NCBI RefSeq assembly: GCF_041146795.1
Contig: NC_135185.1
Span: forward strand, 30,430,529-30,494,528
Direction of reading: 5' to 3'
Length of the DNA stretch: 64,000 bases
DNA from: Maylandia zebra
Taxonomy: Eukaryota > Chordata > Actinopteri > Cichliformes > Cichlidae
Shown here: positions 6,501 to 63,900 of the stretch, one piece after another
Layout: each line of letters starts with the position of its first letter
Position numbering within the stretch: the first letter of the stretch is position 1
The notes under the pieces: model-generated
Seen by the model: only the letters and a program-made list of their open reading frames with translations
What the model was told of the DNA's origin: nothing
Databases searched by the model: none
Position numbers and translations under genes: made by a program

Positions 6501-9500
6501 GCCATTGCACAACAAAGGTCTAGAATTACTAAGCAGGGAAAAATAGGCCGAGACCACAATCGCAAAAAAAATAATAAACAAATATGGGAGCAGAGAGTTC
6601 AATGTGCAAATGTATGGAAGTTTAATTCATTTCCAGTGTTACAGCTGACCTGTCAGATTAATGTAAATAATAATTATTTACTATCACATTCTGATTAATC
6701 GAATGCTAACGTATTTATTGAAAATGTGCGCATCTATCTCATTTTTTTAAAATTTGCTGTGTGAGGCTGCAGATCTTTATTAAAGTCACGTACAGCACAG
6801 CCACCTGTGGGCAACAGACAAAATCTGAATTGTGGCAAAATACAAAATTATATTGAGTGAAACCTGAGCGTCATTATTACAGCACACTTCTCACATCTGT
6901 CTGAGTCACAATGGTAGTTTCATTTTGACATATAACATGTTATTTAATTGATCTGATAATAAAGAGAAGGTAGATTTGTGGCGTTTAAACACAGCTCTGC
7001 GTACACGTGCTGCTGGTTAAAGACCTGGAAACAGAGGATTCGAACCTGTCTGTATCAAATGTGTAAAAAAAAAAGATTACTATATGCTCTAAGTCCACTT
7101 CTGCTCTGTTACATTAAAATAACAGTATAGGAAACCAGCAGTATGTGTTTAGGCTGAGAACTCAGTGAAGAGGGCAGAGGCCAAGCTTTAGCAATGCTAA
7201 CCCCCACAGCTTTGAGCAATCCACCCATGGCAATTACATGTTAATTCTGATAACATCTCCCAATAAAATTCCAAATAAATCAACTCTCCTAGGAACAACT
7301 ATCACAGCCATATCAGGCACAAAATAAGACATGCTTTTGTTTCAGCATTAAATAATGGCGCAATTTGCAGGAAATCACATGTATGATTCATTTAAATACA
7401 CTCCTCCCCAAATTACGAGGTCTGAAAGAGGATTGTGTGTGATAAGCTCAGCTAAAATAACTCTGCCCATGCCTTTCAGTCAGAAACATCTTACGGCGTC
7501 TCTTTAGCAAATCCCAAAACAATTTTATTTGAAAGCCAAAAGTTTCGTACTATTGTAAACCAACAATAAATGTAGGGTAAATGATCTAGGGCCTCATTCA
7601 TTCACCTAACGAATCTGTTTAGTCATGCCAGGCAACATAAAAGTCCTGATATAGTCACAACACATCAGGTGTCATTTTATTGTCTAGTGCCAGCACTAAT
7701 AGACTGTTGTAGCGGGCATGTTGGTCAGAAGGAACAGAAAGTGAGATAAAAGCGGAGAAGATAAAGGCAAGATAAAGGGCCAAAGTTCAAAAACTATAAA
7801 GTGTAATATGAAGAAGGGGAAATCCAAGTCACCATTCACATCATGTCTTACTTTCACTACCAAAACGAAAGATATCTACACTCTTATATGCAATCAGTTT
7901 CAGTGATCAGCGGGTTTAAAGATGTGTCACAACTTAGTACTATTTACTGTGTGTGTCATCTATAAGTATGCTGGGGGAACTGTTACTTTTTGTGTCCAGC
8001 TGGGCTCTGTACTTGGTGAAGCCCCTGAGGCGAACCTTCTCCCCCAGCAGCTGGAGGAACTCTTCCAGGGCGGGACCGGCTACTTCGTTGTTGTACATTT
8101 CCTCCTCTGTGCTCTGCCCTGCTCGGCAGTACATCACTCCCACTTTTACCTGAAAACTCAGCTGGGAACAAGCAAAGACACAAACATGACAGTCAATTTA
8201 TTTCTTTAATCTACTTCAGCAGTGAGCAGGTTGAATAAAAGAATTCCTATTCAGTTATTATAAACACACATTGCAACACTTTAAACTTTCGATCCTTTGG
8301 AAAATTGTTTATTTTCCGCCTACCCCTTGTTCATCCAGTTTCATCAGCTGCTCAGTGACTTTGGGTGTGTTGAGAGCCAGTCTGAGGCAGGAGAGATCCA
8401 GCTCAGGCAGAAGATACTCCAGTACATCTTTAATGGGCAGACCTCGGCTGGTGCCATGCTTAGAGGTGGAAGGCACTGCATCTTCTAGTATAGAACCTCG
8501 AAGAGTTATCAGCTGGAAACGCAGAGATGAAGAACAGGAGATTACAGTGAGGAGCGCGAGAACCAAAGGAATGCACCTCAGGAATTTTTAATGCGCTTTG
8601 AACTCTTGGAGATGAAACACAGTGATAACAAAACATGCCTGCCCTGACACATGGAAGGAAACACAGGCTGCTGTGGTTCTTAAAGTCATAGCTGCCTCTT
8701 ATTCAACCATTAAGAAGTTATGTGAAAACACAGAACAATCACAAAGTGCAACCGAGGAAGAAGAGGAGGTGGAAGGGCTTGTCTAAGCGCTCTGTGTACA
8801 CAAAGTGTGCATTGTGCCGGGCTCTGGGACTGAGCTCAATCACTTGGCTATCATGAGCAGCTGGAACGGATGGAGACTTTCTCTCTCCTGCAAGCTTGAG
8901 GCTGTGCTGGGCTTGTTTTTACAATAGACCTGTGTTCCCCATGTCTAGAAGGTATGGTGGGGGTGTGCTTAGGTAATTCAGGCTAAAGTGTGGGGGTTTA
9001 ATCACATGCACCTGTCCTGCCTCAGTCCACAACAAACAGCCCCAGGCAGATGCCTTTATCCACTGTCTGGGAATGCATGTCCATATAATCCCATAACGCA
9101 AAATTCTAAATCCAATATCCCAAGCCAAACACAGAAGACAGGGGAGCTAACACAACTACTAAATATGACAGTCTATTTTTACTGAAACAAAGACGTAAAG
9201 TTCTCCGCACAGCGGTTTTAGGTTGCTGACAGGCCTTGGAGGCTGGAGGATGAGCGCACTTCCTGAAGTTTCTTCACACATTGCTGATATTGTGAGACAG
9301 CTGAATAGCCCAGGGGTTGGTTGCATAACCAAAAAAAAAAAAAAAAACCAACCAAGGACTGAGACTTATTTTACCTTGAGCTGGTCTTCCTAATATGGGA
9401 TGCATAGAGTTGTTGCAATAAACACACCTTCTATATGGTTATATAAGGTCTGTGGTGCATGTATGACACCCTAAATCCAAAGAAGCTTGCTTCACAGACA

Positions 9501-32298: not shown

Positions 32299-35200
32299 CT
32301 AACAGGCGCAGCTCCTCTGAGGAAGGTGAGGGACTGTGCTCTCTTTGTCTTCCTCCAGACCTGCCTTATCCAGATAGCTGTCCAGAGATCCCAACAGGTT
32401 GTCCACGTCCCTCTTGTGAGCCTGTAGCACGAGTTCTGTCAGACGTTCGAATGACTGGAGGAAGAAGGAAGAAAGAAAACAAAAGAATGCGGCGGGGAAT
32501 TACCCAGAAAAAAATGTTGCCAAGAAAATCCACTACCTCACTGATGTTGATATTCTTGGAGGCACTGGTTTCAAAGAACTCCATCCCATAGGATCCTGCT
32601 AACTACAGACAATTGAAGCGCATATTTTTAGAAATAATAAAACTATTTTATACCTTTTTTCTCCAAAACTATATAAATATAATTTTAAAAAATCAATTAA
32701 ATGCAAAGGCGATACTCTGGCACAATAATACTGATTAAACAGCACAGGGTGTCAACAGTGTGAAGATTTATACATATTATGCACTTGCATGGATGTAGGT
32801 GTATCCTTCAGGCTTTGCTGTGTGCTGTGTTAATATTATAACATGCAGTAAGAGGTTTATAAAAAGTTTATCTTATTTAGCGATATGATTTTTAAAAAGA
32901 TTTCACTAAATGTTTTAAACGTGGGAGGAAGCGTTTGTCTGTCTCAGCCTAACCAGTTGAACAGTATTCTATTTTAAGAGACATGCTGGTATCAGCCATT
33001 AGTTTTTGGAAGCTGGGACTTTGATAGTAGTGCCTCTAAAAGCCTTTTCTCCCTGAAATAAGTTATGCTAGAACCATATTGCATATTTTCTCAATAAAAG
33101 TTCTTCTCAAATATGCAAAAGTGTTTTTTTAAAACCTCAAAAATAAAGTCAACATTATTCCCAACATGAGAGCAGCGACTGAGTCTAGTATAACTGAATA
33201 TTTTGTAGTATTTAGTATCTAGATGGTCCTGGTCTGTGTGAAGAGCTCGGAGGAACGTTCATTCTGATGAATGACATTTGGCTGTAATTCATCGTCTAAT
33301 TTAACAGGGTCAGAAAGAGTTCATATTGGTGTTTCTACAACATGAACAACTACTCATCACACACATGATCTGTACAACCGTCCGGATTTTATTTGGGAGT
33401 GTTTTCAAGTCTTCACCGTGTCTTTGTGGTAAAAAGGCCTGAGGCTGTCTGAGCAATAGAAACAACTAAGAGCCTGCCAGCACAGAGATAGTTGTGCGCA
33501 CACTTCTCGAATCGAGCTGCCAAGTTGCCCGACAGACAGGTTGAATTTGTATGCAGTGTGTGGATTGTTTGTGTAGACTGTGTTTCGAGCTGATCTGGCA
33601 GCTTAAGTGACATTTATGAAACACACAAAGCTTTCCAGCGCAGGTATTACAGTAATCATCATCAAGTTTAAGGAAGTTTAATGGAAGAAACTGGAGGCCA
33701 CCAGGAGACTGACTTACAATATGGGAGTCTGTATATTATGATGTTGAGTACTTAAAACACAATCTCCAAATTAAAATCAATAATATACTAATTAAAGCAC
33801 AGCGGAAAATAAGGCTCAATCAAACCTTGGTTCCTTGGTTCTTTGACACTTCCCTCCTGAGTGAATCATCACATTTGTTTCCTACCAATATGGTCTCCAT
33901 TTTTTGGGTAGTATACTAGAAGAAAACAACAAAAACTGAAGTCAAGCACAGGGATAGTGGACTTCATCATCCTGTCAGTCACTCTAAGCCACTGATTGTT
34001 TAGCAAGCAGCTAAAGTTCAGTCAGCCAGAACACAAATACTGGACAGCTGCGAAGGGCAGCGAACAGAGTGCTTATTGCCTTACTTCATCCACATCACTG
34101 ACCCACTTGGCTATGTGCTTAAAGGACAGCTTGTCTGTGACGTCGTAGACAAAGATGACACCCTGCATAAAAAGTGGAAAGAGGACTAAGGAATCAAAGC
34201 TGCGTTACAGAAATCTAAGTTTACTCTTGGCTGCTCATACTTGCGCCCTCCTGTAGTACTGTTTGGTGATGGTCTGATAGCGCTCCTGACCAGCTGTGTC
34301 CCTGCATGGAGGACCAAACACATATCAGCAAAAGGGAATCACCCATGGCAGCAAGTGTGAATGCAATGAAAGAAAAATGTCACTTACCATATCTGTACTC
34401 GCACCTTGGTTCCATCTACCTCCAGTGTTTTCATCTTAAAATCAATTCCTGACCAAAACAAAGAAAATGCAAATACAGATGTAAGCTGGGATGCAACCTC
34501 CAAAAATACAATCACAAACTGCCAACAAATGTCCCTGAGGTTCATTGAGGATTCCTCGGAGATACTGTTATCTAAACAGGTGTAAACGACACTGAGGGAT
34601 TTCTGTGCTAGGAGACAGAATAAAGGTTTGCAACGTAACTTTGCTGGTTTCTATTCAACTAGTTCTTTTAATCTACTTCTTATTTAGTTTTCATCATGCT
34701 AGCAAAGCCAAAATCCACTCAAAGACAAACATTTCTGATCCTACACTATGTACAGTCATGTTAAAGACTCTCTGCAGTCCTGTGAGGAAGTGTACTCAGA
34801 TGTACTTAACTGATCATCAACAAGTGTCATCACATCTATAAAGCCAGAAGTTATGAAAGGTTTGCTGATCTGTCGCATATCCCAGAAGTAGACATCACAG
34901 TAAGTTTAACCCAAGTTCAGTGGCAGAAAATGGCAAAAAAAACAAACAAAAAAAAAAAAAAACAACCCTAGAGCTACATCTCAGACCCTAAATGGTAAAT
35001 GGCCTGTATTTATATAGCGCTTTACTAGTCCCTAAGGACCCCAAAGCGCTTTACACATCCAGTCATCCACACATCCACACACTGGTGATGGCAGCTACAT
35101 TGTAGCCACAGCCACCCTGGGGCACTGACAGAGGCGAGGCTGCCGGACACTGGCGCCACCGGGCCCTCTGACCACCACCAGTAGGCAACGGGTGAAGTGT

Positions 35201-37322
35201 CTTGCTCAAGGACACAACGACCGAGACTGTCCAAGCCGGGGCTCGAACCGGCAACCTTCTGATTACAAGGCGAACTCCCAACTCTTGAGCCACGATCGCC
35301 TACATGCCTAAATTAGCATCCGTCCTAGGGCCAGTTTGGAATCACCAAACTTTTGGACTGTGGGGGGGAGGCAAAGAACCTGGAAGGAACCCCTGCAGGA
35401 ACAGAGAGACCAACCAGCCAGTAGCTTTGAACACAGGACATTCTTGCTGTAAGAGGCAGCAAGAACCCAGATCGTACTAACCATCACACCTCCAATGTCT
35501 TTTGGACAAACCAGACCAAGGTGGAGATGTTTGGCCATGATGCACAGCACTACATTTGGCAAAAAACAAACACAGCATATCAGCACGAACCCCTCTTACC
35601 ATCTGTCATGCACGGTGGTGGAGGGGTGATGATTTGGGCTTGTTTTACCTGGGCACCTTGCAGTCATTAAGTCGGCCATGAACTCCTCTGTATACCAAAG
35701 TATTCTGGAGTCGCATGAGGTTATTGGCCCGACAACTAAAGCATGACCGAAATTAGCAAATTCAATAGTTTCTGTTATAGTCCAATGTGCCAATAAGCCA
35801 TGACACTACAACTATGACGACTATACTACTGTCGATATATCTTGCAAGAAAAGATTAATGAAAAGACTGAAGAGATCCTTTCATTTGGCTCCTGTGATGG
35901 ATATTTATAAGATTTTTTAACACTAGTGGCATGATTGAAGTTAGAATAGGAAAGAAGTAGAGCAGGAAAAAAAGGAAACGTGTGATTCTGATCAATTGGA
36001 CAACTTGGAATCTGTTCTCTGTTTCCTTCCATATTTGGCTCTGTTACATTTAACATTAAACCCTGAACAGTTTTTGTTTTTTTCTTTCCGTTACGCTGCC
36101 ACCACACTTTGTGGAATCAATAAACTCTGTGTAATCCAATCCCAACATTGTGCTCATAAAAAAGTTTTCTGTCAGGCATTTCATATGATCATTGACCATA
36201 AATACATTTTTGTTGGCGATGCAGCTTCCTAGCCCAGTTTGAGTGAAACGACGAGGTGCTACTGAATCTGAAAATGCACCTACTTTACATAACAATCAAA
36301 TCCCAATCTCACTGTTTTCAGTGTCTGTGAATGAGCTCCTCCTGTAGCCCGTTTCTGTCTCGCCCTAAGGATGGCTTTCCTCTTTTTGCAATTGTTCACT
36401 TTTATCATGTAAGAATCTGCGTTTATGTAATATATGCAAAGCTGTCCATTCATCCTGCATATCGGTATCCTTTTGTTCCAGCGCTTCTTTCACTGCCTGA
36501 TGCAGATCTAAAGGCACGGCTGGTGATTTTCTTTTAGCAATGATTTCATCATCAGACACTATTCCAAATATCCAAATCCCATGTAAAGCCTTTCCACTCT
36601 GCATTTTCTGGTGTGACTTGACCCTGATTATGCTCCACAGTCTAACAGGTAAACAGGGCCTACCACATTTTGTTCCAACTCATTAGTATGTGACACAATC
36701 AGGAAAAGTGGCAGTACTGATATGAAGCACTAATGGCCTCATCAATCCGCAAGTTCCAATCAAGGGGGAAAAGATATAAGATAGCATATCAAATAATTTG
36801 AGAGCAGAAGAAATAGTCGTCTCCCTTCCCATTTCCAGTACGCTCGTGACAGAGACGTAATTTATCAGACCTCTTCTACGTGTCTAACCTTTAATTAAGC
36901 AAAAACATTCCATCTTATACTTTCATTGTGCTTTAGCGTGGGCAACAGAAAGCCTTCTAGGCAAACTTTCCCATGTGAGGCTGTTTGAACTTGAGGCCCT
37001 TTAATCCTATAAGTAGGCCCACTTTTATATTCTGAACAAATGGGAAAGCTAAAATAAAATGCTCTGAATGTTAAAACCCTGCATCTACATTCATCCAGGG
37101 AAAAGAATTTCCCGATGTTTAACTGGTTCAACCTGTGGGGAAAAAAACTGATATGAGTTTTGGAGAAAGCTTCACTGAAAACCTGTTGGATGGCTTACCG
37201 ATGGTGGAAATGTGTGTAGTGTCAAAGTCACTTTCCGTGAACCGGCGCAACATGCAAGTCTTCCCAACCCCCGAGTCTCCGAGCATGAGCAGCCGGAACA
37301 AGAAGTCGTACTGTTTAGCCAT
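32299..37322 (-). CDS. rab15: Ras-related GTPase Rab15
   Basis: Small GTPase of early and recycling endosomes; regulates endocytic recycling. Seven exons: 37322-37199, 34448-34388, 34301-34241, 34162-34085, 33915-33826, 32602-32537 and 32454-32299; 636 bp, 211 residues (human 212). G motifs: P-loop GDSGVGKT (15-22), switch I HISTIGIDF, WDTAGQE (62-68), NKCD (121-124) and ETSA (149-152). The C-terminus ends Cys-Ala-Cys, a CXC double geranylgeranylation signal. YYRRAQG and KWVSDVDEY are Rab15-type and separate it from Rab8, Rab10 and Rab13; the order gpx2-rab15-max agrees with human 14q23.3. The variable tail before the cysteines is unlike the human one. Intron 1 is 2.75 kb and holds a SINE and a Tc1 fragment. 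Confidence 0.95.
34994..35306 (-). mobile_element. tRNA-headed SINE, near full length, subfamily A
   Basis: On the minus strand it starts with GGCGATCGTGGCTCAAGAG. It has a Pol III box-B-like GGTTCGAGCCCCGG, a conserved body (AAGACACTTCACCCGTTGCC, CCCCAGGGTGGCTGTGGC) and the tail GCGCTATATAAATACAGGCC. It is flanked by CCTAAAT (34987-34993 and 35307-35313), a likely target duplication. It sits in rab15 intron 1. A truncated relative is at 41103-41293. Confidence 0.85.
35325..35490 (+). repeat. Dispersed teleost repeat fragment
   Basis: Contains TTTTGGACTGTGGG followed by GGAACCCCTGCAGGAACAG and ACATTCTTGCTGTAAGAGGC. These are the same blocks as the 3' half of the repeat at 21225-21475. Confidence 0.6.
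35495..35800 (+). mobile_element. Tc1/mariner transposase fragment (decayed)
   Basis: Plus-strand translation gives [15 protein letters not shown], then [12 protein letters not shown] followed by a stop, a Tc1 transposase central section of the VMVWGCF type. It lies in rab15 intron 1 beside the dispersed repeat. No inverted termini were recognised. Confidence 0.7.
36365..36604 (-). other. Open 79-codon stretch with protein-like composition in rab15 intron 1
   Basis: ATG at 36604 opens a 79-codon frame rich in charged residues ([32 protein letters not shown]). The composition is less random than other intronic frames, but I recognise no family. It is not part of Rab15. It could be a fragment of a transposon-encoded protein, a retrocopy remnant or chance. 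I do not claim a gene. Confidence 0.3.
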
Positions 37323-39153: not shown

Positions 39154-42100
39154 CTAGCTTAGCTCCAGGCGCAGCTTCTTCCTGTTTGGTGTCTCGTCTG
39201 ATTCTGATTCAGAGCTGGAGTCGGACCCACCATCAAAAGCGGACACGGCGCTCCCTTTGCGGTTTGTGTACAAGCTGCTATCGGAAGAGTAGTTGGTCTG
39301 GAGCTGAGTGTTCCCCTTGGCCTTCTCAAGTGCACGAACTGCAAGTCGTACACAAAGATAGAAACAAACGTTGTTTACGGCATCTGAGATTGAATCCACG
39401 TGACAAAAATGTGCGATACTTATTTAACAAGAGCACCGCTTACCCTGCTGCTCCAGCAGTGCATTCTGCTTCTTTAGATCGTCAATATCTTGCTGGTGGG
39501 TGTGGTTTTTTCGTCTCATGTACTGGATGTACTCCGTGGCTTTGTCTAGAATCTGTGCTCGGGAAGCCTGTTTAACAGAATTCTGTGAGGCCCGTGTGAA
39601 AAAGCAGCCAATAAAGTGCATGAATCTGTTATACACAGTTCAGAGTGTGTTGCAATTTAATCTGGATTCAAATAAGAAGTTAACAAGAACTATTCCAGGA
39701 GTCAGCGACCTCGGGCAGATGGGTCAACGCTTGTTTTGTAGTACCGTATTAAACCAACAGCGCAGGCTGACCACAAATGTTGATGCCACAACTTTGCAGC
39801 AATGCAAACTTGAGCAACAGCGACTGTGTTTGTTAGAAATATGCAGTGTTAACACAGTATACAGATTACTAACCAGACTGAAAATCAGTGGCAGTGGGCA
39901 GTGATCAATTCAAATTAGAAATTTCTGGTCTAAATCATCTTCAGTATTAATCTGAGGTAAAAGAGTGAGTGGCTGCAGCAATCCGTAAAGGCTCTGTCAT
40001 TATTTGGACCTGCATTTCAGTCAGGATAGAAAACAACGCAATTACAACACTCTCGGTCGTGGATTGGCCTCCCCACAGGCTGGACCTCAACATTATTGAA
40101 GCAGTGTTGGATCATCGTGACAGCAAATGTAACAAAAGAAAGCCAACATCCAGAGAAGAGCTTTCAATGAACTATTCCTGAAGACTACTATAAGAAAGCT
40201 GCCTAAGAGAGTTCAGGCTGTGCTGAAGAATAAAAGCCGTCATACCACATAGTGATTTTCAAGCTCATTAAAACTGTACAGACTCTGTTTTTAACTTACA
40301 TACTGTACTTTCATGTATGTTTGCACGTGTTTCGACAGAATTTCCCATTTTCCTAGCAAAATATAAAGAAATGAGGGGTGGCTTTTAGATTTGCATAGCA
40401 CTGCATATCTATTAACTCCAGGTTGAGCATTATCAGCTTCAGTTTCACTTGTGATGGCAGACCAGCGCAGGTACAAGTTAAAAGCAAACGAAGATAAAGC
40501 AGCTGGGATTCAACACAGTACTACAAATCAGGCTTAACAGAGGAGAAAATGATCTCATCTCCATGTTGACACAACAACTGTACGTTAACTGCCTTTTGAA
40601 CTTGAATAGTATTAAATATGAAATGGACAGCATAAGCAGAAACATCACTCTTCATCCAGCATTTATTTGGCAAAGCTGCCAGAGTTTACAGAGCTGCTTG
40701 CTTTGACAGCAGTGTCTACAAGCTTGTTAAAATCCACCAACGAGATGAATGATCTTGTGAATCATTATCAGACACGTCGTTAATATTTGGCGAGGCATCT
40801 GTTTCTACAAATAACAATTTCCTCCTTCCTCTAGGCATGACGGAGAGATGACGAGCATAGATCTGGATTCTGGGGCACAATATGAATGGTCTATGGCAAT
40901 ATATAGATAGTTTCCTCACCTTCTCCCCTTGTAGTGCAGGCACAGAGTCTCGTAAACTGTGAAAGCTGTCTTTAATGTGGTCCCTGCGTTTACGCTCCAG
41001 CGCATTGTGATGTGCTCGCTTGTCTGCCTGCAAAGGGGAGAGAGAAAGTTTAGGTCATTTACAAAAAAACTACATACGTCCGCTTCTTTAACATACAGAC
41101 ACTTCACCCGTTGCCTACTGGTGGTGGGCAGCCTCGCCTCTGTCAGTGCGCCCCAGGGTGGCTGTGGCTACAATGTAGCTGCCATCACCAGTGTGTGAAT
41201 GTGTGCGTGAATGGCTGGATGACTGGATATGTAAAGCGCTTTGGGGTCCTTAGGGACTAGTAAAGCGCTATATAAATACAGGCCATTTACCAGGCCATAC
41301 AGAAGTGATTTAAACTGCAGTAAGAGAAGGCCTCATCTTTAGACGGTTATTGTGTGTATCTGGGTTAATATCAATATATGCACACAAGCAGGAACCTGTG
41401 CTGGAAGTATTTACAAGGACACGATATGTTTGCTTTCAGGGTTGCACCAGCAAATCTTAGTCATAACTAAAATTCAACATTAACTCAGTCTCAACTCTTC
41501 CTTTGCCTTTTTTTCTTAACACGGACTGGATGATAGATAAAAAATCCAATTTTTTGTCTTAAAACAAGGTGTTCCTTGTTTCGTGAGTCACTAAGAGTCA
41601 TGTAAGATCCGTTTGTGGTTAATAACTAGCTTTTAAATGTAGTGATTACAAATATGTGTGAAAATTTTCCAAATGAAGAGATGGGGAGAACATGCAAACT
41701 CTATATGGAAAGGCTGCGGCTAGATTTGCACCCAGGACCTGTGCGTGTTCTCCCCATTTCTCTGTGAATGTGAGCGCGAATGGTTGTCTGGCTGTCTGTG
41801 TTGGCGCTGCAAAAGACTGCCAGTCTGTACCCCACCTCTTGCCCTATGGCAGCTAGAATAGGCTCCAGCTCCCCCATCCACAACCCAGAACTGGACAGAC
41901 GGGATGTAGATCAGGTAAATTCAAATATTGGTATGGTATTATTGTAGCTTTTTGCTCTTCTTTAAATTAACCTCATTCTTATTTTTTAGGGGGTTTTTTC
42001 TCACTGTTGTATATATTTGATAAAAGATGTCTCTCACTAAGTGAGGGTTTTACTTTAACTATTAACTCACTAACTGTACTATTTCTATTCTGTATCCTGT

Positions 42101-44088
42101 CGCTGGACTTTGTCTTGTGAGATCAATAGAGTGTGTATCGATCTATCTATCTGGGCGGCCGTGGTTCAGGGGTTGGGAAGCTCATCTTGTAACCGCAAAG
42201 TTACCGATTTGATCCCCAGCTCACTCTGTTCTGATCGTTGTGTCCTTGGGCAAGACACTTCACCTACCACCTACTGGTGTTGGCCAGAGGGGCCGATGGC
42301 GCGATGTGGCAGCCTCGCTTCTGTCAGTCTGTCCCAGGGCAGCTGTGGCTACAACTGTAGCTGCCTCCACCAGTGTGTGGATGTGAGAGTGAATGAATAG
42401 TGGCATTGTAAAGCGCTTTGAGGGTCTCGAAAAGCGCTATATAAATCCAATCTATTATTATCTATCTATATCTCACTCATTACAACATGTTGCTAGGCCA
42501 GATATTAAAGTTAGTATAAAACGGATCATTTTTAATTTAGGTACTGGCAGAGATTAGAAGGAACATTTTACTTTCATTTTCTTTGTTTATGTAAGAGCAA
42601 CACTACATGTCAATGGATATCAACGTAAAAATGTAGATTCAAACATGGCAGATTTGACTAAAACTGCTAATATCTCGTGAACACATCATGTAAAACTACA
42701 CAAAATGCAAAAGACAAACATATACATCAAAACAAACATAAACAAAAGACAAATACAAACAATCTGCCTCACAAAGTTAAAGCTCATCACTTGAAATATG
42801 GATGTGAAATTTGAGCCTTTGCTGAAAACTGTTTTTAGGAAGCATTTCTAAACTTAATGGCTCAGTAGCGTTAGATGCACGGCACAATGAGAGCTTATGA
42901 AGCCTTACAGTAAATGTATAGGTGGCTCTAATAGGATCTACACTAGAGTTGGAATCCATAGTTCTGAGAAATATGTGGCCATATTTAGGTCATGTTCTCA
43001 GATTCATGCTCAATTAAAACACCACATCGCACTTTGGGGTGGGAAAATGCAACTGCTTATTGCAACACGAGGAATTCAAACCTGCACGCACAGTGGGCGT
43101 ACTGATACATTGGCAGAGTGGTTAGTTGTAATGCAACTACAGCGCTGGATTTTTAGCAAGAAACCACAATTTAACAGGTAACAAGGGCTTGCAGAGAAAT
43201 ACTGAATAAATCGCCGGGCTTATAATCAAGAAAACACAATAACATGACATGAATTCAGTTGTACGATAGGAGAACATCGAGTACTGTATTCTCATTGAGC
43301 CTCGGTTTGCTGTATTAAATGTGTGTGCATCATAGCCTGACTTAAATCACACGTCAGAGCTAAAGATACAACCAACCACGACATTTCAACCAGCTAGCTG
43401 TCAAGTATGCTAACTATATCTAGGTAGACGTGAAGGGATTACCCTTTTATGCAACGAATAAACAAGGGCTGCATTTAGCATCTAAACTAAATAAATAGTA
43501 AAAGCATGCGTGGTGTAGCCGACAGAACCGTGTTATATTTCTGAAAGGAACATTATGTCCAAGCAAGCCGTCAGTTCACCTCTCAGAAGAGCTGACCTTG
43601 TGTCCTGGAAGAGCTTAACTGCTGTTTATGATTGGTTTTATTTATGTTTTTTTTTCCATATTTGCAGTTTTAACACAGCGTTTTATTTCAAGTTTTATTG
43701 ATCACGTGACAGCAGGAATACGGTCCACCAGAACGAGTGATTTAAGTTATAAGAGCATAAAACAGCCCTCTTTATTTTGCTGAGCTGCCCCAAATAAACG
43801 ACAAATGTCGTAGCGAGGCTACCCAACTTATTCACCAGTTCCGTGTGCGACTTTCATTTGAAAGTCAGCAATTAAGAGCTCAAACGCCCCCCCTAACAGC
43901 TATCTCCATACAGGCTTCAAAACCTAGTGCTAGCCCAGAGAAACCCCCGCTAACTAGCTAGCACAATCAAATAGCATATTTTGAGAGGAATGTGAGTTAC
44001 TGTGTAGCTAACAAACTGGCTAGCTACTTCTAGAAGAAACAAAAAGACATACATCGCTGTCGACTTCGATGTCATCGTTTTCGCTCAT
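39154..44088 (-). CDS. max: MYC-associated factor X (bHLH-leucine zipper transcription factor)
   Basis: Obligate nuclear partner of MYC, MXD and MNT proteins; binds E-boxes (CACGTG). Four exons: 44088-44053, 41027-40920, 39567-39444 and 39338-39154; 453 bp, 150 residues, like the short human isoform (151). Exon 1 encodes [12 protein letters not shown]. Exon 2 carries the basic region and helix 1 ([20 protein letters not shown], with the DNA-contacting His, Glu and Arg). Exon 3 carries helix 2 and the zipper start ([19 protein letters not shown]). Exon 4 carries the zipper end, the Ser/Glu-rich stretch ([11 protein letters not shown]) and the basic tail RKKLRLELS. The 9-residue alternative exon of the human long form was not found in intron 1. 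Tc1, SINE and dispersed-repeat insertions occupy the introns. Confidence 0.97.
39960..40400 (+). mobile_element. Tc1/mariner transposase C-terminal remnant with 3' end
   Basis: Plus-strand frames read [14 protein letters not shown], then [18 protein letters not shown], the DWPPxSPDLNxIE catalytic-region motif of Tc1 transposases. After frameshifts come a [17 protein letters not shown]-like C-terminus and TTTGCATAGCACTGCATA near 40390, resembling a Tc1 terminus. It lies in the max intron between exons 2 and 3 and is inactive. Confidence 0.8.
41103..41293 (+). mobile_element. 5'-truncated SINE, subfamily A
   Basis: It starts mid-body (TCACCCGTTGCCTACTGGTGG), continues through CCCCAGGGTGGCTGTGGC and ends GCGCTATATAAATACAGGCC. 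It is very close to the 34994-35306 copy but in opposite orientation and lacks the tRNA-like head. It lies in max intron 1. Confidence 0.8.
41670..41885 (-). repeat. Dispersed teleost repeat fragment, rearranged
   Basis: Contains GGGGAGAACATGCAAACTC and, further on, TAGAATAGGCTCCAGCTCCCC, the 3' and 5' blocks of the 21225-21475 family. The second block is in reverse orientation relative to the first. It lies in max intron 1. Confidence 0.55.
42151..42460 (+). mobile_element. tRNA-headed SINE, subfamily B
   Basis: Head GGGCGGCCGTGGTTCAGG, a weak box-B-like TTTGATCCCCAGCTC, body AAGACACTTCACCTACCACC and CCGATGGCGCGATGTGGCAG, tail GGGTCTCGAAAAGCGCTATA. The CCGATGGCGCGAT block and the TCGAAAAGCGC tail separate it from the subfamily A copies and link it to the copy at 59433-59738. 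Confidence 0.85.
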
Positions 44089-56156: not shown

Positions 56157-59100
56157 TCAAGCCTCCTTCAGCAATGGAATATCTGTGAAGGAAAGACAAA
56201 AGTTTGATTATTACAAAATTTAAGAAGTGTTTTAAATAAATACAAAGACATCTAAATAAATTTAGCTTCACCATCAGAGTAATCCATCTCAGAGTCCAGA
56301 GACAGGCTATGGTGGTCGCTTCCTCTAGACGGCCTTCTTTGTGATGAAGAGGTGCCTGCTGCAGCACCTGCGTGCTCCAAAGCCCAGGTAGAGGAAGAAG
56401 GAGATGAAGAGGATGAAGACGGTGGGACGGGATGGACCACAGCCATCTCAGACTGCTGCTGCTGCTGCTTGAGGGAAGAAGGCCTAGAGGGGCCAGCCTC
56501 TGGCGCTGTAGCATGCTGACCCTCCGACAGCACTATCTGAACTCGAGATTCTGAACTGAGAGCAGAAGCTCCACTGCTGCTCACGGCTTCCTCATATGAA
56601 GGTAGAGTCACCTGTACTCCCTCCACCATGATTGACACAGGCTGTCCTGACACACCCTGATCGCGTCTAGGTGTAGAGGACAAGAACACAGTCACATGTT
56701 TATCTAGTTTCCATACTCTGCACCCTTTGTTCGTGGTCAAATTCAGGGGAATCTTTGGGCAGACTTACCGATGGAGAGACTTAAGTTTTGGCTGAAGAAG
56801 CACAAACAGCACAACCAGAAGCAGGATAAAAGCCACCGAACAAGCTGTGGATGCCACTATGGATAAAGTTGGCATCCCCAGTGGCAAAGTCGGACTGTGG
56901 TCTGTGGGACAGACAAGCAGTTATATGGTTATCTGTGCAGATTTTTTTAATTATTAGCTGAAATCCATTTTCTTATCGTCACCTTGCTTCATAATGCAGC
57001 TTAGCTTCATTTGGCTGTCCCACTCCCCATACTGACAGGTAAGATATTTATAGTCTCCCTTGAGAATGTATCCTTCATTGCAGAAATACTCAATCACAGT
57101 GCCATGAGAAAGTCTTTGGCATGGGAAGGGGTGGCAGGTGAAGCCTCCGTTCTCTGGCTGATATGGACGCTGGCATACTGTTAAGGGTAGAAATAATAAA
57201 TGAGTGATAGGATGACAGAACAGCAAAATCAAACGGAATTCTGAAATAACTGTTATACTGAGATAAAATGGGCAAACCATCACTATAAACACTGAAAAGA
57301 GTTAAGACCTAGCAGGACAGAGAAACTTTATTCCCATTATTCATAAATGCCTTGTTGTTGAAGGTGGTGAACAAATGATCTTGACAACAATTCTTACCTT
57401 ACACCTAGCATTAACATGTCACTGGTGTTGTATGTAACAAGAAAATTACCATCACTGTGTATGCAGCGAGGAGACTCAGAGGACCAGTGTCCCAGTGTGG
57501 TGCAGGTGACAGTTCTGGGTCCATCCAGGAGGTAACCGGGATTGCAGGTATACTGTAGTGCTGTGCCAACTGGGAAGAAGCTCCTACTGGTGTCTGTCAG
57601 ATTGGCTGAGCCATGCTGCACCATCGAGGGTCTTCTACAACCTTAAAAAGGAGATGATAAGGAAAATATAGTTGATAGCTGTAAACAGCTCAACTCCAGC
57701 AATAACTACAGGCTTTGTTCATAAAACATTTTCTAAGCTATAAAAATAGATGAAAGAATAAAATAGTTATAACAGATAAGAAAAGCCTTTTGATACAGTA
57801 TGAACTGATGTATCAGCGAATCCCATTTTACCTTGCTCAATGACGCAGCTGACTGGCATTACAGTGTCCCATTTCCCATACTGACAAGTGATGAATTTAT
57901 AGTCTCCCTTCAGAATATAGCCATCATCACAGAAATACTGAATCACAGTGCCATGAGAAAATCTTTTGCATGGAGAGGGGTGGCACGTGTAGCTACCATT
58001 TTTTGGCTGATATGGAGGCTGGCATACTGTCCATGAAAAAGAAAGAAATACGATAAATGTATAGAAACAGTAAGATGTGTTATGTCTTATCTTATTTTAT
58101 CTGGAATAATAAAAATAAAAAAAATCATTTTCTTTTAAGGATACAATGCACCTAAGAATTAGGCAAATTAAGAATTGCTAGGAGGTTTGTCTTTACCATC
58201 ACTGCGTATGCAGCGAGGAGGTTCAGAGGACCAGTCTCCCAGTTTGGTGCAGGTGAGGCTGGTGGGTCCAGCTGGCAGGTAACCAGGATCACAGCCATAA
58301 TGTAGTACTGTGCCCACAGGGAACAAGCTCCTGTTGCTGTCTGTCAGATTAGCTGAGCCATGCTGCACCATGGAAGGTCTTATACACCCTAAAGAAGGTG
58401 GTGGCGGCAGGGGTAATTTATGTTATTCATTACATTTTTATTATTAAATACAAACACAAAATGCTTTACAAGAAATTGTAACAGATAAAGAGAAAATAAA
58501 TATATTTGAATAAACACAATTAATTTGAAATTATGTCTTTCGAAGACTTTTTTTAATTGCAGGGCAAAATGTGCATATGATAACCAGAACATCTCCACAA
58601 ATCCAAATCTCCCTGGCATTAATTTGCTGCACGCTCATGTTTAGCCGATGTGTTAAACTTTGAAGAGATGGGATCAATCTAAGGACTGACCAACCTTGGC
58701 TTACACAGCTGATTTCCATGGGGCCGTCCCATTCTCCATCTTGACATGTCAGGTAGTTATAGTCTCCGCTGAGCATGAAGCCCTCATTACAGAAGAACTC
58801 AATCACAGTGCCATGGGCGAACAGTCGACAAGGGGATGGGTGGCAGGTGTAGCCCCCGTTATCCGGTTTAGAGAGGGGGAGGCATGCTAAAGAGAGGAGA
58901 AAAAAAAGAAGAACAAAACAACTTATCTTTAAAAGTACTTGTGCAGAAAAGTACTTGTGTAAAAAAATCTGGCTGAAAAAAATATTAGACAGCAAAGTGC
59001 AACATACATAAAACTTGAAAAGAACTGATGGTTTTTAAAAAAAGGGTTTAAATCATGAGATAAAGATGTTAGGTAAACTGCTCAAAACACATTAGCCACT

Positions 59101-61082
59101 CACTATTTTACAGATCATAAAGAAAGACAACAGTGGAGAGAATATCTTACCACCACTGCGTATACAGCGTGGAGGTTCAGAGGACCATCGTCCCACTGCG
59201 GTGCAGGTGAGGATGTTGGGTCCATCTGGGAGGTACCCGGGGTCACAGCTGTACTGCAATACTGTGCCCACAGGGAATGAGCCCCTGTTGGTTTCTGTGA
59301 GATTTACCCAGCTGTTCTGAACCATGTACGGCCTCACACATCCTGGGAAGAGAGGAAGAACTCAGAAGAATTTCTTTAAAACTGCTTTTTCAAGGCAACA
59401 AAGAGTTCAGATTGTTATTTCAGCTAATCTGAGGCGATCGTGACTCAAGTGTTGGCAGTTTGTCTTGTAATCGGAAGGTTGCCGGTTTGAGCCCCGGCTC
59501 GGACTGTCTCGGTCGTTGTGTCCTTGGGCAAGATACTTCACCTACCACCTACTGGTGATGGCCAGAGGGGCCGATGGCGCGATATGGCAGCCTCGCTTCT
59601 GTCAGTCTGCCCCAGGGCAGCTGTGGCTACAACTGTAGCTGCCTCCACCAGTGAGTGAATGTGAGAGTGAATGAATAGTGGCATTGTAAAGCGCTTTGAG
59701 GGTGTCGAAAAGTGCTATATAAATGCAATCCATTATTATTATTATAATAATCTCAAATCTAAAAGTAAACTACTGTATGAGGTAAGGCCGCTTCCAGACA
59801 CACTTTTTCACACCTTTTTGCAATCTTACAAATCTAATTCAAGATGATCACTATTTAAATAAAATGTATTATTATTATTATTATTATCACATGAAAACTA
59901 TTTTCTCTGGATTAACAAAAGAAACAGCTGGACATATTACAAAAGAGGGAGCCAAATGTTACAAAACAAACTGAATTATTCCTGCAGGACTCACTGGTAA
60001 TCCTGAACACTATTAAAAAGTACCTCATAATGATAAAGACTTTTTAACAAATATAAAGGACCTTATAAATGTAGAGCAGAAAGGCTTTTGTTCCAAGAGA
60101 CTGACTAATCTCAGCTTTCCAGAAAATCAACGTGTCATTACAATCACTCTACTATGGAAGATACCACAACAACAGAGGCAAATTAGGAAAGGTCAGTGGA
60201 TCACCAAAATCTGTTTAAGCTTTTCAAGACATTCACAATTTAATTAACATATTTATTAATTAACAAGTATCAATATTTGATATATGATAACATCAGTCTA
60301 TACGATCCATTTTTATTTATAAACCTCACCATGAAACTGAAAGGTATAGAGACGTCATGGCTGCCTTTTAATTAGCCATGTACGGGCAGACGTTAGAGGT
60401 AATTAATTGATTGCATCCCTGGTGTTATCCAGGTGAAACTTGTGGTGATCCTCTTCAGTGTTGATACATATGAAACCAAATTATTATTTTATTTATTGCC
60501 ATCATGGCTTGATAACACTTTCATCTGAGGTATAATTGATTTTCTCCTCTTTTTTTAAAAAGACAACAAAAAAAAACAACAACAAAAACACAGCTTTGTA
60601 TCTTTTCCCTCCCGGTCTCAGACATGGCTGAACGGTAGCCATAGCCTCTTTGATTTAAGAAGCGTATACAGAGCCTTTTTAATGTTTCCAATGCAAATTC
60701 TTCAAATTGCCTAACAACTCAAGAGTTGAACTAGAAATTTAAGTATAATAATTATGTAGTTGAGCTATAAAGTTAATAGGTATGCTACACAGAGCTGCTT
60801 TATTAGGGCTACAACATAATACATCTGATGACATCTACTGTGTAGTAGATGGAGTAGGGCTACTGACTTCTAATATTCACCCATTCAATCTGTGTCTTGA
60901 TAAACCTAATTTAATAAGTCTATTGTGAGAAAAAGATGTCAACATAGCAAATTCTGTTCCATACCTGACCCCTGCCCAGTGGACACTACAATCAGAAACA
61001 GCAGCAACAGGAAGGACCGTTTAGTGGCTGAGGTGTGGGCCCAAAAGGCTTTTGATATTGACTCTATCATTCCATTGCACAT
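56157..61082 (-). CDS. susd6: Sushi domain-containing protein 6 with six sushi domains
   Basis: Single-pass membrane protein; human SUSD6 is a p53-induced adaptor acting with TMEM127 and WWP2 on MHC class I turnover (family knowledge). Ten coding exons: 61082-60965 (signal peptide), 59342-59151, 58886-58695, 58388-58197, 58026-57832, 57641-57450, 57177-56983 (six sushi exons, all phase 1), 56901-56769 (transmembrane), 56666-56272 and 56182-56157; 1830 bp, 609 residues. Human SUSD6 has one sushi domain and 303 residues. The sushi exons alternate between type B (CxRPxMVQ...TNRGSFPVGT) and type A (NGGYTCHPSPC...DYKYLTCQ.GEW), the latter being the human type. The transmembrane segment is about residues 438-461, followed by QPKLKSLH, a WW-binding LPSY motif (491-494) and the conserved end DIPLLKEA. 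It is head-to-head with fsip1. Confidence 0.92.
56983..59342 (-). repeat. susd6: Three tandem copies of a two-exon sushi cassette in susd6
   Basis: In gene order: B1 (59342-59151), A1 (58886-58695), B2 (58388-58197), A2 (58026-57832), B3 (57641-57450), A3 (57177-56983). Exon lengths are 192, 192, 192, 195, 192 and 195 bp. Every exon starts and ends in phase 1, so cassettes can be added without breaking the frame. B2 and B3 share RPSMVQHGSANLTD, and A2 and A3 share VCQ.PYQP.NG, so the second and third cassettes appear most recently related. The copies have diverged, so this is not an assembly duplication. Confidence 0.9.
59433..59738 (+). mobile_element. tRNA-headed SINE, subfamily B
   Basis: Head GGCGATCGTGACTCAAGTG, box-B-like GGTTTGAGCCCCGGC, body with CCGATGGCGCGATATGGCAG, tail GGTGTCGAAAAGTGCTATA followed by an ATT/ATA-rich run. 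It lies in the susd6 intron after the signal-peptide exon. Confidence 0.87.
59740..60960. other. susd6 intron 1 interior, nothing identified
   Basis: AT-rich, with an (ATT)n run near 59868-59886 and A-rich tracts near 60558-60590. No exon or named repeat was seen. Confidence 0.5.
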
Positions 61083-61707
61083 CTTCCCCTTCAGAGTCAA
61101 TTCAACCTGGCAGAATCAGAAAATAACATTATTACAAAACTGTCGATACACAATGCTTTAAAGGTTATCCTCCACAGCCTCTATATACTGACACCTGCTT
61201 GGTGCAGGTACACTGCAGAGCTTGGGCAGCTGCCAGCGAAATGGGTGTGATTATGGGGAAGTGCTACAATGACAGCACTGTAAAGATATTGGTATTAGCA
61301 TCTGGCAGAAGAGCATTAAACAGAGAGCAAAACCAAACACTCGCTTTCATGCGTTAAATATACACTATTTAAGAAGCAATTGCTTTATCTAAATACATAC
61401 GACAGATAAAATATAACTACGGTGGTTCCGTCTCAGCGATTACACACCCATTTTCACTGTTTCGTTTTTAGCATTCGCAGCTCCCTTTAATAACGTTACA
61501 GGACACAAGGCCCGGACAAAAGATGTCATTTTTACACAAATAGTATAAAATGTTGATAAGTGGGTACCGCTTGTGCTATAGCCAATGAAAAAGTATTATC
61601 CGACAAAGTATATCATCTGATTTCATTGTTACTGTAGTTCAACATTTACCGTTTTAGCTTGCTAATGCTAAATAGACAGAAACTGCTCACTTTTAAACGT
61701 TACTCAC

Positions 61708-62103: not shown

Positions 62104-63900
62104 ATGGAAATCACCAGAGGCACTTTAGATGACATTTCCCGACCTGCGTCGAGCGAGCAAAAAGCTAGCCGCGTGTCCAGCGTATCATTACCTCAAAGTG
62201 ACAGAATTTGTCCTACAGCTCCATTTTCCCTTGTTGTTTTGCCCAGCGATGCTCCTGATGCTCAGGTAATTAACTAAACACGACATATTAGCATTGTATA
62301 TGTCATTGGTGTGCATCTCGTAACTTTAGACTACAATTTCCTGTAGATTCCGAACAGCTCTGAAGAGTCTACAGGCCACTCATCAGTCACATGTCCTGGC
62401 AAAGGTAATAATTCCACACAGTGTGCTGTGTCGTTGACTTTTATTGACGGTCACTCACTTACAAAAATATTGGACTGCAGATCAGTCTCACGCTGATGCT
62501 TCCGAGGGACAGAATGAACATTTTAAACTGCAGAGAGCTATTGAAGAAATTAAAAGACTCGATGAGATACTGTCTGCAAAAATCTTCAAACTAAAAGAAG
62601 TCCGGCGACAAAGAAAGGAGTTTCAAGCAAAACTCTGGCAAGAGTTCAAGGTAGACACACCTTTGTATCCAATCTCCTTCCTTGATCAGTTTATTAGACT
62701 GTTTTAAAACTAAAATATTTTCATTCTTATCACCTCAAAGTCAGAAGTCGAAGTCAGCTTGATTTTTAAAAACCATATGTACAGCTCATACGCAGGAATT
62801 TGAAATTGCAATACTCCCAGTGTTAAATTAAAACAATCTAAAAGATAAAAAAAAAATCACCTATATGTGATGTTATACTGTGTGTTGATCTGCAGCAGAA
62901 TAAACCTGGAGGTCACTCTGGATGTGCTCAGGAAGCTTTGAACACAAGGTTGTTTTTGGCTTTGGAAGTACCCGAAGGTAATATTCAGAACAGCAACAAG
63001 TGTGTGGGGAACATGCAGTTCATATCATCACTGAGTCACTGATGAAGACTTTCTTATCGCCCTCTAGGAACAGATGAGGACAACAACGTTATACCTGTGT
63101 TTGACACTCAGATTCCTGAACATGAGCAGAATGGAAACAACCAGCACTCGGAGCCAAGTGAGCTTGTGGAAAGACTGCAACAGAAAATACGTTCTTGTTT
63201 GTGCTTCCAAAATTGTGCACACGATGGCGCCACAGGGTCAGGGAACTTTAGCATTTGATTCTTGCATCACTTCAGCCTGCTGCAGGCATTAATGTGCTAA
63301 AGGAAATATTTCCAAGAAATGAATGTATAGCAACTGGCCCTGTGTGACTCATAAACGTTTTTCTCTTCAGGATCATCTGCCTTTTTTATGATATTGATTC
63401 CCTAAGAAATAAATCTCTTCCCAAAACAGCAGTCAATTCAATGCTAATTGCTCCATTCAAAGATTCTTAGGCAGATTAGCTGCTTGTTATCATAGAGGCC
63501 TAAGATGTAGTTAGTAGATTGTCCTCCTGCCTGCTATGCCACCTTGTAAGAATATTTTTAGTCTACTTCTTTACAAACTACTTATATTTGTATATTTTAC
63601 TCTGATCACTCTGATTTGAGCAGCTGCAAACTCATCATGTCAATAGGATCACAGAACCACATTTGTAAAATAACATTATCAGATTTAACTGGTTATTAGA
63701 GTCTTGACTTACTATTTCAATATTTATCTTCATAAATGCATTGCATACTTTCCTTGACAGGTAACCAGAGGCCAGACAGCTTGATCAGATCATTTGAAGA
63801 AGATTATGAAGACACTAGGGAAGACCAATTTGAACGCAGCCACTCTGGAGATTCCAAAGGCATGAATAAACAGAAGGACTTTGTCAAGAAAAACATTGAG
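62104..63900 (+). CDS. fsip1: Fibrous sheath-interacting protein 1, N-terminal 234 residues; partial
   Basis: Sperm-tail protein that binds the fibrous-sheath component AKAP4; other roles are poorly defined. Six exons in the window: 62104-62265, 62347-62404, 62481-62650, 62896-62977, 63068-63157 and 63761-63900; 702 bp, all phases joined, ending at a donor (ATTGAG|GTATGT), so the gene continues to the right. The N-terminus MEITRGTLDDISRPAS matches the FSIP1 start. Residues about 86-130 form the conserved coiled coil (EEIKRLDEILSAKI, KEFQAKLWQEFK). VFDTQIPEHE and KDFVKKNIE are further FSIP1 blocks. A short exon containing the coiled-coil start was placed using the acceptor at 62479-62480. Human FSIP1 lies on chromosome 15, unlike the other genes here. 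Confidence 0.9.

Follow-up and report, generated by a model that had tools for sequence, protein, structure and literature searches.

SUSD6, together with TMEM127 and the ubiquitin ligase WWP2, helps set the level of major histocompatibility complex (MHC) class I on human cells, a relation that was reportedly the subject of a 2023 study by Chen et al. Human SUSD6 (KIAA0247, DRAGO) has one transmembrane segment and an LPSY motif at residues 174-177; it needs this LPxY motif (Y177) to bind WWP2, which it weakly disinhibits only when TMEM127 is present (PMC12720080). In a review, the SUSD6/TMEM127/WWP2 complex is said to send MHC class I to degradation (PMC12268796). SUSD4 is described as a membrane protein with four complement control protein (CCP) domains, whose tail binds NEDD4-family ligases via LPxY and PPxY motifs (PMC7972451). 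Within SUSD4, the ectodomain is the GluA2-binding part, and the tail is the part that binds NEDD4 ligases; mutating LPxY abolishes ligase binding, while mutating PPxY only reduces it (PMC9083331, PMC7972451). Here, I describe a susd6 gene from the cichlid Maylandia zebra, found in a stretch of 64,000 nucleotides (NC_135185.1, positions 30,430,529 to 30,494,528), hereafter the window. The gene has six sushi domains, arranged as three pairs of a B-type and an A-type domain, and is one of two susd6 copies in this fish. Among the papers listed in literature searches on SUSD6, SUSD4, and sushi exon duplication, no title or abstract opening described a multi-sushi SUSD6.

Three B-A pairs of sushi exons

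As read from the sequence, the susd6 gene lies on the minus strand (61082-56157) and has 10 coding exons for a protein of 609 amino acid residues. The six sushi exons (exons 2-7), each 192-195 bases long, come in the order B1-A1-B2-A2-B3-A3 toward the tail. All six are open, all are on the minus strand and between phase-1 introns, and an AG before and a GT after the exon were found at 12 of 12 edges. With a common phase at every sushi intron, the reading frame is preserved whatever the whole number of pairs. The exons are as follows.

60965..61106, minus strand: exon 1, with the end of the 5′ untranslated region, the ATG at 61082 and a likely signal peptide (MCNGMIESIS...); with acceptor cag and donor gtatgg, and a phase-1 end
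59151..59342, minus strand: sushi exon B1 (4 Cys); Pfam Sushi 50.9 bits
58695..58886, minus strand: sushi exon A1 (6 Cys, CHPSPC loop); Pfam Sushi 35.1 bits
58197..58388, minus strand: sushi exon B2; Pfam Sushi 46.6 bits
57832..58026, minus strand: sushi exon A2; Pfam Sushi 32.1 bits
57450..57641, minus strand: sushi exon B3; Pfam Sushi 50.1 bits; AlphaFold2 model (mean predicted local distance difference test, pLDDT, 86.5); Foldseek matches mostly CCP structures
56983..57177, minus strand: sushi exon A3, membrane-adjacent; Pfam Sushi 27.1 bits; AlphaFold2 model (pLDDT 88.8); Foldseek matches mostly CCP, weakly; CCP chains by sequence
56769..56901, minus strand: transmembrane exon (PTLSIVASTACSVAFILLLVVLFVLLQPKLKS); 70% identity to the C15 copy (see below) over 44 residues
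56272..56666, minus strand: cytoplasmic exon with LPSYEEAV, the LPSY at residue 491; 45% identity to the C15 copy
56157..56182, minus strand: last coding exon, DIPLLKEA and stop; all 8 residues shared with the C15 copy

The signal peptide was assigned from a hydrophobic stretch judged by eye. The B exons have four cysteines each, and the A exons six, with a CHPxPC loop; the A-type domain with the extra cysteine pair occurs beside the membrane, and the six cysteines are present in A1, A2, and A3 alike. By position, A3 is the counterpart of the single sushi domain of human SUSD6. The array is followed by the SUSD6-type features, namely a transmembrane segment, a tail with an LPxY motif (LPSYEEAV), and the DIPLLKEA end, and no PPxY motif was found in the 609 residues. 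The absent PPxY, the DIPLLKEA end, and an exon order as in the C15 copy rule out that the gene is susd4. The A1 donor AAG/GTTGGT (58689-58697) is off the consensus at +3/+4, yet matches it at seven of nine positions, which equals or exceeds the other eight donors (6 or 7); it is a possible exon-skipping site.

All six exons score above the cut-off of the Pfam Sushi profile PF00084 (27.1 to 50.9 bits against 20.7), and the whole protein matches it in six stretches (8e-52). Two of the six domains, A3 and B3, were modelled with AlphaFold2 on small alignments of the window's repeats and their same-genome relatives (five rows for A3, four for B3). For the B3 model, Foldseek gave 30 matches at E<=0.001, mostly CCP structures, with 2yra in fourth place. 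The A3 model had one match at E<=0.001, again 2yra, whose title names an F-box zinc-finger structure, and CCP entries follow from 1.1e-3. A PDB search with the A3 sequence itself gave CCP chains of complement proteins, the best being whole factor H at 1.9e-20. The models thus suggest a CCP fold, clearly for B3 and more weakly for A3.

The amino acid identity is 56-69% among the A exons and 64-73% among the B exons, and 19-30% between A and B. A repeat finder gave two long three-copy families, placed at the exon positions. Between pairs, the ratio of nonsynonymous (dN) to synonymous (dS) substitutions is 0.18-0.36, which suggests constraint on the repeats. The C19 susd6 (the window lies on contig C19) is a real, intact-looking variant. 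The initial annotation had read the same anatomy: its interval 56983..59342 coincides exactly with the outer limits of A3 (56983) and B1 (59342), and the three phase-1 B-A exon pairs with a transmembrane segment, an LPSY motif, and a DIPLLKEA tail are all read in the sequence. The identification as susd6 holds by the transmembrane segment, LPSYEEAV, and DIPLLKEA, all common to the C15 copy. The 12 sushi splice edges and the absence of stops were borne out by AG/GT at all 12 and open frames; together with dN/dS below 1 between repeats, they agree with its view that the array looks functional.

A one-pair sister gene and the history of the array

The genome searched comprises 962 Mb, and relatives are named by contig (C15, C14, and C17). 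With the A3 exon as the query (41 of 41 candidates scored), the one close relative outside C19 is on C15 (63%, E 4.8e-24), followed by a more distant match on C14 (40%, E 8.3e-8) and a partial one on C17 (E 1.4e-4). Among the best 150 of 219 candidates, the B3 exon likewise led to C15 (48%, E 1.1e-11), and then to other sushi exons from E 1.8e-6. In the 30 kb read around the C15 site, one B exon, one A exon, a transmembrane segment, the LPSYEEAV tail, and the DIPLLKEA end lie in order on one strand. Thus, the C15 and C19 genes share the B-A pair, the transmembrane segment, both tail motifs, and the exon order, but C15 has one pair and C19 three. That the two arose from the teleost genome duplication is my guess.

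The coding pattern LPSY[DE]EAV was found at three places in the genome (C19, C15, and C14), while the reversed control pattern was found at one. Pattern scans of the genome-contig and viral-contig collections gave 34 and 6 matches, with no relatives among them. The C14 gene (C14:35588316-35592114; segment positions 3112-3582 and 6704-7114) is the third LPSYEEAV gene and also has PPPPYEEV; this combination of LPxY and PPxY recalls the tail of SUSD4. Within the 40 kb examined there, it has one divergent A-like sushi domain of 18.5 bits, under the Pfam cut-off of 20.7. About 20 kb from it lies an open reading frame (ORF) with a sub-threshold protein-kinase match, which looks like a PAK kinase.

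As both domain types occur in C15, the pair is older than the separation of C15 and C19. The human SUSD4 and SUSD6 sequences used for comparison were not taken from a database and are provisional. In a genome-wide query with SUSD4 CCP3-CCP4, the second half of the query matched A exons and the first half B exons. Among the best 150 of 185 candidates, the first seven rows hold the three C19 A exons (49, 48, and 45%), then the A exon of C15 at 42%, then the three B exons of C19 (45, 41, and 42%), with the C15 B exon at 38% and E 0.15, below many ordinary sushi exons. From this row order, the pair probably predates the SUSD4/SUSD6 split, too. The first two CCP domains of SUSD4 are of another type, and a CCP1-2 query gave 50 matches at E<=1, with no C19 exon in the list. 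No susd4 ortholog was recognised genome-wide with three SUSD4 segments, which does not imply its absence; the tail segment gave two matches only (E 0.32 and 0.66), both in known susd6-type genes.

Given a pair of this age, fish probably went from one pair to three, and the single mammalian domain is probably a loss. Human SUSD6 probably lost B, and C19 probably gained two pairs. The history is therefore probably better put as two-to-six domains in one fish paralogue, and probably as a two-to-one change toward mammals. Relative to human SUSD6, the LPSY motif is shifted by 317 residues (491 - 174), and the five exons B1, A1, B2, A2, and B3 make up 321 residues, four more, which leaves space for a single sushi exon in human SUSD6. 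The provisional human A domain is nearest to C15 (69%), followed by A3 (60%), A1 (56%), and A2 (49%), and C15 thus looks like the conservative copy. I take WKPAME to be the end of the A domain, and PTLSIV the start of the transmembrane segment, in the provisional human SUSD6 sequence. SUSD6 primers for quantitative polymerase chain reaction printed in one report were translated here to the same WKPAME and PTLSIV (PMC11790895).

The pairs differ in their divergence. By the Nei-Gojobori method (NG86), dN and dS are 0.147 and 0.494 for pair 2 versus pair 3 (0.149 and 0.414 by maximum likelihood, ML), 0.223 and 0.965 for pair 1 versus pair 2, and 0.219 and 1.241 for pair 1 versus pair 3. The bootstrap ranges of dS are 0.31-0.78, 0.65-1.62, and 0.81-2.32, respectively; dN/dS is 0.30, 0.23, and 0.18, with upper bounds of 0.50, 0.37, and 0.30. 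Against C15, the pairs have dN of 0.374-0.409 and dS of 2.5-3.7 by NG86, and dN of 0.34-0.40 and a saturated dS of 10.8-26 by ML. The bootstrap dN is 0.11-0.28 within the array (estimates 0.15-0.22) and 0.28-0.54 to C15 (estimates 0.34-0.41). Pair 1 likely separated first, and pairs 2 and 3 then split from each other, after the C15/C19 separation, unless gene conversion lowered dS. Tripling probably came after C15 and C19 had separated, though not recently. Trees were made by neighbour-joining (NJ) bootstraps and one FastTree run on the C19 exons, C15, and the provisional human SUSD4 and SUSD6; in the tree of the joined alignment, pairs 2 and 3 stand together (67% NJ, FastTree 0.91).

These results bear on the remaining claims of the initial annotation. 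Its expansion from one to six domains stands as to the six domains and the tandem two-exon unit, whereas the starting count of one probably does not, as C15 has a B-A pair. Its reading of the B domain as part of the expansion is not supported: C15 has both B and A, and the provisional SUSD4 CCP3-CCP4 matches both, so that a B domain newly captured with the expansion is ruled out by the one-pair sister gene. The dN/dS comparison between cassettes that it called for gave the 0.18-0.36 cited above, and trees of the sushi exons, run with C15 and the provisional human sequences, joined pair 2 with pair 3 in the joined alignment and left the root not fixed. That human SUSD6 has one sushi domain agrees with the published LPSY position of 174-177 versus 491 here (PMC12720080).

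Proposed mechanism and its rivals

I propose, with a probability of about 0.68, that one B-A pair was ancestral and that the unit in the C19 gene was duplicated twice, giving B-A-B-A-B-A before an unchanged ligase-recruiting tail. The ancestral ectodomain would have had one membrane-adjacent B-A sushi pair, retained in C15 and presumably in domains 3-4 of SUSD4, and the phase-1 two-exon unit was probably duplicated by unequal crossing-over in introns. I infer the order of events, cargo binding, and, by homology, ligase use. The C19 gene would encode a single-pass membrane protein whose LPxY tail may recruit a NEDD4-family ubiquitin ligase, e.g., WWP2, and whose outer sushi part may select a membrane protein for removal. 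Because the CCP ectodomain of SUSD4 binds cargo, the fish array would lie in the cargo-binding half. Three pairs would make a longer cargo-binding rod with repeated binding faces on an unchanged ligase half. Reach, avidity, or cargo choice may shift, and the bound protein would still be ubiquitinated and removed as before.

Several points weigh against the two-step duplication of an ancestral pair and its proposed function. The joining of the six exons is predicted from genomic sequence, and skipping a single sushi exon would preserve the frame. A recent loss of function would be compatible with the low dN/dS between repeats, and gene conversion could lower dS inside the array. The first (signal) exon of the C15 gene was looked for and not identified, so that the intactness of this gene is only partly established. 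Owing to saturation of dS to C15 and to the many bootstrap replicates without a defined value (set to -1, giving an unusable median of 1.4-1.65), the dS contrast between the array and C15 rests on point estimates. That the protein trees do not root the array is a real limit. The three C19 pairs stand apart from C15 and the provisional SUSD4 in 45% of the NJ bootstraps (FastTree 0.19), and pair 1 groups with SUSD4 in 30% and with C15 in 15%. In the best A-exon tree, A1 joins C15 and human SUSD6 at 26%, and A2 and A3 join SUSD4 at 24%, so that the C19 A exons are not one group there; the B-exon tree has B1 with SUSD4 (50%) and C15 with SUSD4 (48%). As to function, knockdown of SUSD6 in HT29 cells raised surface MHC class I, and knockdown of TMEM127 did not substantially do so (PMC11790895).

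It seems improbable, but would suit some of these observations, that the tripled array is ancient, older than the C15/C19 split, that C15 lost two pairs, and that gene conversion keeps the C19 pairs alike. The protein trees give no firm root, with A1 joined to C15 and human SUSD6 in the best A-exon tree, and the uneven divergence (dS 0.32-0.36 for B2/B3, 0.54-0.70 for A2/A3) is what patchy conversion would give. Profiles of the eight exons also found, besides the C15 pair, four weak partial matches in the 19 kb upstream, which might be worn remnants. However, these matches have E of 0.24-1.3 and cover 15-32 of about 65 profile positions, none spanning a whole domain, and I read them as chance. 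Both dN and the point estimates of dS set each pair farther from C15 than from each other. When the nine introns of the C19 gene were compared with one another, no similarity was found at E<=1e-3; since the pair introns share no similarity, no conversion track is visible outside the exons. The unrelated introns and the coding DNA divergence of 17-33% also rule out an assembly artefact, the chance of which is negligible: tandem repeats can be misassembled in general, but copies that differ this much, with such introns, cannot be one locus assembled thrice.

Another doubtful scenario is that mainly shorter isoforms are expressed by skipping or alternative use of the phase-1 exons, the six-domain protein being minor or absent. 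The sushi exons are symmetric throughout, so that leaving out any of them preserves the frame, and the A1 donor departs from the consensus at +3/+4. There is a precedent in B7-H3, whose exon-pair duplication yields 4Ig and 2Ig (four- and two-immunoglobulin) forms, the 4Ig form being predominant (PMC3172298). On the other hand, the A1 donor is no poorer a match than the other eight, the AG/GT edges are complete, and dN/dS between the repeats is below 1. A bolder idea, and a rather remote one, is that the C19 product is a long multi-sushi ligase adaptor that took over the cargo of SUSD4, with C15 keeping the original SUSD6 role; it arises because no susd4 was recognised and the C19 exons are the best genome matches to SUSD4 domains 3-4 with the provisional queries.

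Surroundings and comparison with known systems

Six of the seven window ORFs tried have Pfam matches: Rap_GAP, HLH, SBF (bile-acid symporter, two ORFs), FSIP1, and GSHPx, the last below its cut-off (24.8 versus 27 bits). I take the neighbours to be SIPA1L1, MAX, SLC10A1, and GPX2, with human places in 14q23-24; FSIP1, presumably at human 15q14, is at odds with this neighbourhood. The Pfam FSIP1 gene (62438-62704) lies beside susd6 in the opposite direction, and if the ORF with an ATG at 62104 is its putative first coding exon, about 1 kb separates the start codons of the two genes. An interspersed repeat has four copies in the window (59430-59752, 42154-42461, 34998-35301, and 41127-41287), the first in susd6 intron 1; copies 2-4 are 77-89% identical to the first, and the last is partial. 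Its 3′ end resembles the tail of a fish short interspersed nuclear element. Rfam and tRNA scans of the window gave no matches.

A fish with a two-domain and a six-domain susd6, both with LPSYEEAV and DIPLLKEA, offers a natural test of what the sushi domains contribute. If the proposed polarity is true, human single-domain SUSD6 is a reduced form, and the missing B domain may offer a binding face invisible in work on the human protein; an N-x-T site is conserved in all four of the B domains that were compared.

Human SUSD6 presumably has a Met-Cys start, EEAV after LPSY, the DIPLLKEA end, and a six-cysteine A-type sushi domain beside the membrane. From the LPSY position and the provisional sequence, it has one sushi exon and no B-type domain, against six exons in C19; since the C15 sister gene has two, six versus one is taken as a difference in copy number. 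The C19 protein also starts with Met-Cys (61077-61082). In one report, an N-terminal peptide of human SUSD6 was oxidised by ADO in vitro and a green fluorescent protein fusion responded, while full-length SUSD6 in cells showed no change with oxygen (PMC11199558). Expression of susd6 is also reported in a sturgeon (PMC9656806). SUSD4 is alike in that domains 3-4 of its provisional sequence are B-type then A-type. It differs in having four domains and PPxY in addition to LPxY, where the C19 protein has six domains and LPxY at residue 491 without PPxY. The closest parallel for the event itself is 4Ig B7-H3 (CD276), an immune surface protein in which a two-exon ectodomain unit (IgV-IgC) was tandemly duplicated, with a changed function reported (PMC3172298). 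B7-H3 differs from the C19 gene in that its domains are immunoglobulin rather than sushi domains, and that a single duplication took place, in mammals and in an unrelated gene.

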